Shown here: positions 62 to 58,730 of the stretch, one piece after another | How the letters are laid out: every line of letters starts with the position of its first letter | How positions within the stretch are numbered: the first letter of the stretch is position 1 | Source: Picocystis sp. L7 | Taxonomy: Eukaryota > Chlorophyta > Picocystophyceae > Picocystales > Picocystaceae | Length of the DNA stretch: 64,000 bases | NCBI GenBank assembly: GCA_020975725.1 | Contig: QXJR01000017.1 | Coordinates: 311,001 to 375,000 of the forward strand | Direction of reading: 5' to 3' | Notes under the pieces: generated by a model | Database searches by the model: none | Told to the model about the DNA's origin: nothing | What the model saw: only the letters and a program-made list of their open reading frames with translations | Program-made: the position numbers and the translations under genes

Positions 62-637
62 ATGGCGCTGCGCAGCACGCCGAAACGTCTGGCACCGACC
101 CTCCGAGGTGCTGCACGTCTCACGAGACGACCTGCATCCGTCTCGGCCGCCGTGTCGACCTCGTCCTTGGGCGACTTCACCGCCGTGGACATCGACGGGA
201 AGACCAGGAACCTCTCCGAGTTCGTCGGAAAGGTGTCTTTGGTGGTCAACGTCGCGTCCGAATGAGGCCTGACCGACCAGAACTACAAGGAGCTCGTCAC
301 CCTGTACAACACGTACAAGGCGAAGGGCTTCGAAGTTCTGGCCTTTCCTTGCAACCAGTTCGGGAAACAAGAACCGGGAAGCGAGGAGGACATCAAACAG
401 TTTGCAGCCAAGTACGGTGCGAATTTCACGATGTTCAGCAAGATCGATGTCAATGGACCGAACGCCCATCCCTTGTATGTGTGGCTCAAGGACAACCTTT
501 CTGGATTCATGGGTAGCAAAGACATCAAGTGGAACTTCGGAAAGTTCCTCTTGGACAAAGAGGGAAAGCCAGTGAAGCGTTATGCGCCTACGGACAACCC
601 CCTCAGCATCGTCCCAGACATCGAGAAGCTCCTCTAA
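62..637 (+). CDS. glutathione peroxidase, candidate selenoprotein (in-frame UGA at 263-265)
   Basis: This thiol/selenol peroxidase reduces hydroperoxides. It reads as a single 191-residue frame if the TGA at 263-265 is decoded as selenocysteine. The TGA follows NVASE exactly where the paralogue at 1934 has Cys (NVASEC-GFTDQNY), which is the family's catalytic position. Downstream, the conserved FPCNQFG block with its Gln, then KWNFGKFLLD with its Trp and Asn, complete the catalytic set, and the frame is clean to the TAA at 635-637. The first ATG is at 62. The roughly 45-residue Arg/Ser/Ala-rich leader resembles an organelle transit peptide. A form 2 SECIS-like hairpin lies in the 3' UTR at 682-758. 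The alternative, a pseudogene with one nonsense mutation, is less likely because everything else is intact and the hairpin is present. Confidence 0.85.
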
Positions 638-681
638 GCTTCCAACTATGCCTTCCAGGTAGGTGCACAACCAAACCAATG

Positions 682-758
682 GGCGAAACGACCCGATGAT
701 GCTGGCCCAGGAAAGCCCCTGGGCACTGGGCTCAGCTGAACTTTACATCGTTTACGCC
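682..758 (+). promoter_or_regulatory. candidate SECIS element (form 2) in the GPx 3' UTR
   Basis: Helix I pairs 682-691 with 748-758 (one bulged A at 754). The non-Watson-Crick core is ATGAT (696-700) against TGAA (737-740), giving tandem G.A/A.G pairs. Helix II is 10 bp (701-710 with 726-736, U732 bulged). The apical loop opens with unpaired AA at 712-713, and a 3-bp mini-stem (715-717 with 722-724) makes it the two-loop form 2 shape. It starts 45 nt after the stop. All core SECIS requirements are met by hand folding; no program was run. Confidence 0.75.
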
Positions 759-34596: not shown

Positions 34597-35029
34597 AGAG
34601 AAGGCCACGAAAGTGGGCGCAGGACTGCTGCTGTGGTGTCCAAACAGTCGTCAGGTGCTCCTGCTGCAGCGCAGATCGCGACACAACGACTTCAAATGGG
34701 GTCTGCCGGGAGGAAACGCCGAAGGAGAGGATGGAACGCCTCTGGAGACGGCCCAACGAGAAGCCATCGAAGAGTTGGGTCAACTCCCACCCTTTCAAGT
34801 GTCCTTCGAATTGCTGACCAAGAGAGGGAAAGATAAAGAAAAACATTACCGCGTGTTCGTGTGCAAGGTGAAACAAGAAGACAAAGAGATGTACCAACCC
34901 GACCTCAACGAAGAACATAGAGACTGGAAGTGGATCGAGCTGGCACAACTTCAAAACATGAAAGGAGAACTCCATCCCGTGGTCAAGAAGCTTGTCAAGG
35001 AGCATAACCTCCTCTTTCGGCTCTCTTGA
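34577..35029 (+). CDS. Nudix hydrolase
   Basis: A 150-residue single-domain Nudix protein. The Nudix box is GGNAEGED...TAQREAIEELGQL: the REAIEELG core is perfect, with a two-residue insertion before it relative to the G-x5-E-x7-REUxEExGU signature. The N-terminal strand VGAGLLLWCPNSRQVLLLQRR and the following KWGLPGG are typical. Closest general type is a MutT/ADP-ribose-like pyrophosphatase; the substrate cannot be deduced. No transit peptide. The C-terminus includes EHRDWKWIELAQL, the usual end strand of the fold. It is convergent with the SNF2 gene, 74 bp between stops. Confidence 0.88.
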   Translation: MATHVGEEKATKVGAGLLLWCPNSRQVLLLQRRSRHNDFKWGLPGGNAEGEDGTPLETAQREAIEELGQLPPFQVSFELLTKRGKDKEKHYRVFVCKVKQEDKEMYQPDLNEEHRDWKWIELAQLQNMKGELHPVVKKLVKEHNLLFRLS

Positions 35030-35103
35030 TCTAGCTGGGACAAGCCATGAGCATTGGACCGTCGCATTTTGCCTGGAAACGACTGAATCCACGACGTGTC
35101 TTC

Positions 35104-58034: not shown

Positions 58035-58730
58035 TCAGTGATTGCCACTTCCCCATACCGAGTCAAGATACTGATCTCTACCACATCTTGATCGATAGAA
58101 GCGATACAGCAGTGGATTCTTTTTGTAGTAGTCTTGATGATACTCTTCTGCATCCCAGAAGTCTGTCACTGGCACGATTTCTGTACGGATGGGACCTTGG
58201 AAAACCCCCAGCTTCTCGTACTTTTCTCTAGAGTTCAGGGCGGCTTCCTTTTGCATTTCGTCGTGGTAGAAGATGGCGCTTCTGTACTGTCTCCCTCGAT
58301 CGCAGAATTGTTGGTTCTCCTGCGTAGGATTGATCTGTCTCCAGAAAACGTCCAGCAACTCTTCGTAGCTCACTATTTTGGGGTCGTACTCCACACGCAG
58401 GCTCTCCGCGTGTCCGGTGACGCCAGCCGAGACCTGTTTGTACGTAGGGCGTGCTTCTCGTCCACCGCAGTATCCAGACACGGTGTTTTCCACACCATCC
58501 ACGTGATCGAAGGGCTTTTCCATGCACCAGAAGCATCCACCAGCGAACGTGGCGGCTTCCAGACCTGCTCCAGGCGATCCTCTCGGTCCGTACACGGTCG
58601 ATTCTTCCGCCATGGCGATGCTGGGACGTGCCAGTGTCAAGAGAGACACCGCCAGCAGCGTCCTTCGATCCGTTCCGTGCGTTTTCGTCCCGCGAGAGGC
58701 GCGCACGCGCGTGCACATCTTCGTCGCCAT
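58035..58730 (-). CDS. msrA: peptide methionine-S-sulfoxide reductase MsrA with a lumen-type leader
   Basis: A 231-residue protein. The active site is FAGGCFWCMEKPFD (catalytic Cys in GCFW, Cys rather than the Sec of some algal MsrA), with VSGYCGG, YEELLDVFWRQINPTQ, DRGRQYRSAIFYHDE and AEEYHQDYY following, all MsrA hallmarks. A Cys near the end (RCGRDQY) can be the resolving residue. The ~40-residue leader is basic, then RRTLLAVSLLTLARPSIAMA: twin Arg, a hydrophobic core and an AMA cleavage site. This is like a bipartite thylakoid-lumen (Tat) signal. Start: the only leading ATG. Upstream lies TRAP-alpha (−), in tandem. Confidence 0.93.
   Translation of the reverse strand: MATKMCTRVRASRGTKTHGTDRRTLLAVSLLTLARPSIAMAEESTVYGPRGSPGAGLEAATFAGGCFWCMEKPFDHVDGVENTVSGYCGGREARPTYKQVSAGVTGHAESLRVEYDPKIVSYEELLDVFWRQINPTQENQQFCDRGRQYRSAIFYHDEMQKEAALNSREKYEKLGVFQGPIRTEIVPVTDFWDAEEYHQDYYKKNPLLYRFYRSRCGRDQYLDSVWGSGNH

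Follow-up and report, generated by a model that had tools for sequence, protein, structure and literature searches.

A predicted selenocysteine glutathione peroxidase gene with tandem UGA and cysteine paralogues in a Picocystis-like alga

We find that positions 62 to 750 of a 64,000-nucleotide stretch of algal DNA (G000:C15:311001-375000, hereafter the window) very probably constitute a nuclear selenoprotein gene, encoding a GPX4-like (1-Cys type) glutathione peroxidase (GPx) with a predicted catalytic selenocysteine (Sec) at codon 68. The original prediction, made from the letters of this stretch, had proposed a real Sec protein here, and that proposal gains support from three sources: the Sec machinery found in the same genome, purifying selection past the in-frame UGA, and paired changes in the SECIS elements of three paralogues. 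The gene is one of three UGA-containing GPx copies that stand in tandem beside a Cys copy, and around the UGA these three copies are nearly identical.

The genome to which the window belongs comprises 20.5 Mb in 30 contigs, and the GC content of the window, measured in four parts, is 0.525-0.554. By protein match, the closest organism is Picocystis salinarum (P0001, 91% identity; TAXON_ID 88271), a member of the early-branching class Picocystophyceae. For Picocystis strain ML, a GC content of 53.6%, close to that of the window, and an assembly of 29.6 Mb in 318 contigs have been reported (PMC6346183). We additionally observed that P0121, labeled Pavlova lutheri in EukProt, is 100% identical to the Picocystis-like genome over 183 amino acids, matching L035 (G000:C6); the label is probably a mislabeling or a contamination.

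The UGA glutathione peroxidase gene

The gene, which we call copy C, runs on the forward strand from ATG 62-64 through TAA 635-637 (62-637) and encodes 191 amino acids including the Sec (U). Both halves of the original description of this frame were borne out by direct reading: it is open on either side of a single TGA (263-265, codon 68) in the context NVASE-U-GLTDQN, and this TGA takes the place of the catalytic Cys codon, aligning with TGC (2132-2134) in the tandem paralogue. The GPx family model PF00255 matches straight across the TGA with 134.5 bits (cut-off 27). Among natural PDB chains, the best matches to copy C are mammalian GPX4 (up to 176 bits), an enzyme that has a catalytic Sec; chain 2p5q, which we take to be the plant-type GPX5 from poplar, reaches 165 bits. 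Thus, the gene appears GPX4-like rather than plant GPX5-like by the small margin of 11 bits only, and its predicted targeting differs from that of mammalian GPX4.

The catalytic partners in GPx enzymes are the Gln of FPCNQF and the Trp/Asn of KWNF, and the translation of copy C retains both motifs. The plant resolving Cys, which we take to lie within FACSRYKATF of P0005, is absent from copy C, where the corresponding sequence is QFAAKYGANF. In poplar GPX, the resolving residue is reported to be the third Cys (PMC9404953). Because copy C has the FPCNQF and KWNF motifs and lacks the plant resolving Cys, we tentatively favor a cycle that depends on glutathione. In the mechanism that we propose, UGA-68 would be decoded by Sec-tRNA-Sec delivered by EFsec, which would be recruited via SBP2 bound to a form-2 SECIS in the 3′ UTR. 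U68, aided by its Gln and Trp/Asn partners, would then reduce hydroperoxides, those of lipids included, and in the absence of a plant-type resolving Cys the enzyme would be returned to its active state by glutathione or a comparable thiol. Copy C also carries an N-terminal extension of ~35 residues that is absent from the tandem UGA copies A and B. By eye, the extension looks like an organelle-targeting peptide, and its restriction to copy C suggests a compartment different from that of A and B.

To the 123 codons that follow the UGA in the three tandem UGA copies we applied the Nei-Gojobori method, pair by pair. We obtained dN 0.135 and dS 0.805 for A-B, dN 0.121 and dS 1.404 for A-C, and dN 0.163 and dS 0.868 for B-C, which places dN/dS between 0.09 and 0.19 across the three pairs. 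These values indicate that the part past the UGA is translated, as sequence beyond a true stop would look different. A preserved downstream frame would also be expected if the UGA were a real stop with low-level readthrough, but readthrough does not account for a UGA placed exactly at the catalytic Cys in a genome with a SECIS and the Sec machinery. Genome-wide reassignment of UGA to something other than Sec is contradicted by copy B and the tandem Cys copy, each of which is closed by TGA at the end of the conserved C-terminus, and by the TCA anticodon, which among five tRNA-Sec-like hits (the scope of this comparison) belongs to tRNA-Sec only. We therefore consider a non-Sec reading of the codon, whether by readthrough or by reassignment, highly improbable. 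There is also very little chance that copy C is a degenerate GPx pseudogene or that TGC was misread as TGA in sequencing. The two codons are one base apart and the neighboring GPx gene is an intact Cys copy, but the same TGA is present in four GPx genes of the genome, the strong selection after it contradicts a pseudogene, the three tandem copies carry SECIS-like hairpins that have diverged from one another, and the same site is disturbed in a P. salinarum transcriptome protein.

This P. salinarum protein is 191 amino acids long and 91% identical to copy C over its full length. Opposite VASEUGLTDQ of copy C it reads VALNEALTDQ, with a garbled 'ALNEA'. Worked by hand, a one-base deletion plus a one-base insertion around GAATGAGGC yield exactly VALNEALTDQ, which suggests to us that the UGA is conserved there and was stepped over by a caller that tolerates frameshifts; 'ALNEA' would then be a product of frameshift correction at that codon. 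Copy C itself illustrates how a plain gene caller would split UGA genes.

The SECIS element and the selenocysteine machinery

The form-2 SECIS hairpin that had been predicted downstream of the gene, with an AUGA/GA core, a helix, an apical AA and a mini-stem, was located in the 3′ UTR at 689-750 (forward strand, core 696-739) by Rfam, a sequence pattern, the covariance model R1, covariation and folding. Its core begins 58 nt after the TAA of copy C and consists of ATGA (696-699), a 5′ helix (701-710), an apical GAAA (711-714), a mini-stem (715-717/722-724), a 3′ helix (726-736) and TGA (737-739). All of the form 2 features are present, namely the non-Watson-Crick AUGA/GA core, a helix of ~10 bp, the apical AA and the mini-stem.

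A scan of the whole window with 4227 Rfam families at E ≤ 1 returned one match only, SECIS_1 at 688-751 (30.1 bits, E 0.07). The expectation of a SECIS score was thus realized in part: the SECIS_1 model does match, but its score falls below the Rfam gathering score of 35. The elements of the thioredoxin reductase (TrxR, 32.9) and SelT (25.8) genes of the same genome also score below 35, indicating that this cut-off does not separate real from false elements here. A genome-wide SECIS_1 search at E ≤ 10, for which 133 of 230 first-look candidates were scored, did not have the window element among the matches listed (at least four places), presumably because of that partial scoring.

We also searched with a SECIS-like pattern (ATGA, a helix of 9-12 bp, AA, TGA). 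Because this pattern was devised after the window element was known, Rfam and the held-out model R1 provide fairer tests. On both strands of the window the pattern occurs once, at 696 with a score of 8.5, while 30 first-order-Markov resamples of one strand gave a total of five matches (0.17 per 64 kb), of which one scored at least 8. In 3-kb loci it recovers 6 of 10 distinct UGA genes, missing L006, L026, L039 and L040, and it gave no matches on the antisense strand of 12 loci. The same scan found no SECIS after the Cys gene of L001 or in L004.

R1 is a covariance model whose only input was the SECIS of copies A and B, sister genes whose elements are related to the one under test. Run over both strands of the window with filters off, it placed 689-750 first of 12 matches at E ≤ 10 (25.6 bits, E 2.8e-4), with no matches at this threshold between 751 and 4703, the interval after copy C that includes the Cys copy. 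We reject the second match (34978-35049, 19.3 bits, E 0.015) as chance: it overlaps the end of a frame that is NUDIX-like by eye, has no UGA gene upstream and is unmarked by the pattern scan. As a general SECIS finder R1 was also rejected, being too narrow; it missed the elements of TrxR, SelT, L025, L026 and the fourth UGA GPx, L006.

Comparing the three SECIS elements (A, B, C), we count standard pairs in 31 of 33 cells and changes on both sides in 3 of 11 pairs, and sliding the partners by 1-3 columns lowers the pairing to 15-42%. When the columns were reshuffled 500 times, the observed pairing was reached 3 times, the covariation score 14 times and the count of both-side changes 23 times, in a comparison of few sequences (three, all paralogues). 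The fold of 680-760 has a z of -2.6, a stability equaled or exceeded by 4 of 200 shuffles. A MAFFT alignment of five SECIS with unequal loops was misaligned, and we discarded it. For L006, a SECIS-like hairpin was picked by eye; Rfam at E ≤ 1 and the pattern found none there, and it is absent from the lone fold of that locus.

A search of the same genome for the tRNA-Sec, EFsec, SBP2 and SPS that the original prediction had named as a check found all four. The tRNA-Sec scores 76.2 bits (gathering score 47) and is called tRNA-SeC with anticodon TCA by ARAGORN, which assigns the other four tRNA-Sec-like matches to Ser (three) and Trp (one). The best PDB match of EFsec (L012) is eEFSec (421 bits), with EF-Tu at 118 bits at most; against the SelB model it scores 184 bits, below the cut-off of 242. 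SBP2 (L032), one of six L7Ae-domain places, scores 80.7 bits to SECIS-binding protein 2, SecS (L020) 495 bits (cut-off 225) and SPS (L022, G000:C13) 294.6 bits (cut-off 125). For PSTK there is a weak candidate, L034, the second of two PF08433 matches, with 26.2 bits to TIGR03574 against a cut-off of 290.5. With this set, the Picocystis-like alga joins the organisms with near-complete Sec machinery. Of note, the SPS/SelD in L022 carries at its N-terminus a fused FAD oxidoreductase-like domain (TIGR03169, 454 bits) and is Cys-type by eye.

The tandem array and the sequence around the UGA

PF00255 identifies six GPx places in the genome (from seven first-look candidates), four with a TGA and two without. 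By translation, the TGA falls at the catalytic NVASE(U/C) site in 4/4 of the UGA genes. Copies A (L003), B (L005) and C, the last in the window, lie in tandem on contig 15, and the fourth UGA copy (L006) is on contig 5. One Cys copy (L001) occupies 1934-2512 of the window on the forward strand, next to copy C, with TGC at 2132-2134, a stop TGA at 2510-2512 and no SECIS found downstream; the other (L004) is on contig 1. Neighboring catalytic codons are spaced by 1457 bp (A-B), 2019 bp (B-C) and 1869 bp (C to the Cys copy), so that three UGA GPx genes and one Cys GPx gene fit within about 5.9 kb between the start of A and the Cys-copy stop. A UGA GPx is itself of the ordinary algal kind; three of them beside a Cys copy is the less ordinary arrangement. 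Packing three Sec copies, each with a SECIS of its own, and a single Cys copy into about 6 kb, the array offers a compact natural setting for studies of Sec/Cys exchange, of how SECIS elements diverge and of gene conversion near a recoded codon.

Two further features of these genes were noted. In copy B (L005 1963-2001), a UGA follows EKLL ~60 nt upstream of the SECIS core and, if read as Sec, would add 12 residues up to the next stop; it is more likely a plain stop, because A has TAG and C has TAA there. L006 (G000:C5, minus strand) has a twin-arginine-like N-terminus (KWRRREASALLVV...SVASG), which by eye could serve thylakoid-lumen targeting.

Copies A, B and C share a putative gene-conversion tract of 102 bp around the UGA (173-274, forward strand). 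From -90 to +11 relative to the UGA, A and C have no mismatches and the A-B and B-C pairs have one each (at -24), which for B-C is the sole mismatch from -107 to +97 (window 156 to 360). Between +180 and +372 the UGA copies differ by 7 to 26 mismatches per 60-72 bp, and upstream of -120 their ungapped comparison is near background. In the 30 codons leading up to the UGA, differences affect a fraction of 0 to 0.045 of the synonymous sites, compared to 0.49-0.64 past it; with ~22 synonymous sites in those 30 codons, we estimate that the identity is far from chance. Over the same 30 codons, the tandem Cys copy differs from copy C at 26 of 90 positions. The simplest reading would be gene conversion among the tandem Sec copies with the Cys copy left out. 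We tentatively extend it to a model, possible but far from secured, of concerted evolution limited to the UGA segment: conversion would hold together the pre-UGA block, the UGA and its immediate context, the remainder of the genes, the SECIS and the N-termini would diverge, and the Cys copy would be excluded. If this is true, conversion and a hairpin just past the UGA would be a means of guarding the recoding context and the UGA against drift to Cys.

That hairpin also bears on a different explanation, namely that selection on an RNA element, the recoding context, rather than gene conversion maintains the ~100-bp identity. Folding and recoding tests delineate a candidate hairpin of 24 pairs at 277-341 (forward strand), starting 11 nt after the UGA, that resembles a Sec redefinition-type (SRE-like) element. 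Over a 30-codon stretch, the post-UGA sequence was more stable than synonymous recodings in C (z -4.1), B (z -4.0) and A (z -3.0), with 0/400 recodings as stable in each case. This stability was not seen in the Sec copy L006 (z +0.9) or the Cys copy L004 (z +0.2), while the Cys copy L001 reaches z -2.8 (1/400) in the same stretch with another fold. Of the 24 pairs, 22 are retained in copy A, 19 in L001, 14 in L006 and 13 in L004; for copy A, the pairs retained correspond to P = 0.096 against random allowed changes, and its hairpin energy is reached by 6% of such changes. Moreover, the identical block lies mainly upstream of the UGA and its ends vary by pair (-90 to +11 overall, -107 to +97 for B-C), as conversion predicts. 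We consider RNA selection an unlikely source of the identity and favor gene conversion.

Copy C also shows a z of -2.4 (5/400) in another stretch further down, which suggests that the gene is structured in general. We keep the element at 277-341 as a candidate recoding-stimulating (SRE-like) element and no firmer, because of the P of 0.096 for copy A, the 19/24 pairs in L001, the identity of B and C in the hairpin region, and the span of the recoding test over five stretches in six genes. SREs have been described after the UGA-Sec codons of SELENON and other genes (PMC8704476, PMC3541580); the likeness is an RNA structure just past the UGA-Sec, the one in the window being predicted and not seen in L006. 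A literature search on gene conversion in tandem GPx selenoproteins surfaced only a Blastocystis genome paper.

Relation to other algal selenoproteins and further UGA genes

Sec GPX is listed as one of the four most widespread algal selenoproteins (PMC7539508). For Chlamydomonas reinhardtii, two Sec GPX are described, the Sec of one being verified by mass spectrometry, and a mitochondrial location has been suggested (PMC9404770). Copy C resembles these as a green-algal GPX with a predicted UGA-encoded Sec. Chlamydomonas is reported to have two Sec and three non-selenium GPX (PMC9404953), whereas the Picocystis-like alga has three tandem UGA copies beside a Cys copy. Ostreococcus tauri offers a second likeness, being a prasinophyte whose small genome has five Sec GPx genes and SECIS elements with an apical mini-stem (PMC2375036). 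Compared to the description of those elements, the mini-stem of the SECIS in the window is 3 bp long, and the usual A is present. Tandem duplicates within one selenoprotein family also have algal precedents, in clusters of two SELENOW (Chlamydomonas), two SELENOU (E. huxleyi) and three PRX (Symbiodinium) (PMC7539508). The section on clusters in that paper names no GPX cluster, and the Picocystis-like array differs in mixing Sec and Cys copies and in sharing a tract at the UGA. Our literature search found nothing joining Picocystis with selenoproteins, although transcriptome-based selenoprotein databases may hold P. salinarum entries, and a search for Picocystis with glutathione peroxidase gave a single match, which concerned another alga.

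Chlamydomonas has a Sec MsrA (PMC9404770), whereas the three MsrA matches in the present genome have no TGA in the domain (0/3), so there is no UGA MsrA among these. The window itself contains an MsrA with an ordinary Cys (GGCFWC) at 58035-58730 on the minus strand.

In total, the genome has about nine or ten UGA genes: the four GPx genes, L025, L026, TrxR, SelT and two Rdx genes. The thioredoxin reductase (L023, G000:C10; assigned by eye) ends in GCUG and has a SECIS of 32.9 bits, and SelT (L024, G000:C27), with CTSU, has one of 25.8 bits. The two SelW-like Rdx genes, L039 (G000:C15) and L040 (G000:C10), carry CxxU motifs (CVRU and CGAU, respectively), and the pattern scan found no SECIS in 1.5 kb of sequence at either. 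L026 (G000:C6, minus strand; reverse-complement frame 2-1453) is membrane-protein-like with an in-frame UGA (SGRTGL-U-NIAQAG) and a SECIS-like hairpin of 25.0 bits just past the stop, in which CGA replaces UGA in the 3′ core. It has no Pfam match at E ≤ 0.1, and database searches turned up just two relatives (99-100% and 89% identity), both of which terminate exactly at the UGA. It is a possible lineage-specific new selenoprotein. L025 (G000:C24, minus strand) encodes a membrane protein whose frame contains two UGAs (GTAUAP and VGSUCWP), and it has a SECIS-like element of 25.5 bits; a full-length homologue from Chlamydomonas eustigma has Cys at both aligned UGA sites. By description, L025 fits the two-Sec membrane selenoprotein MSP, which has been reported from Ostreococcus and Chlamydomonas (PMC2375036).
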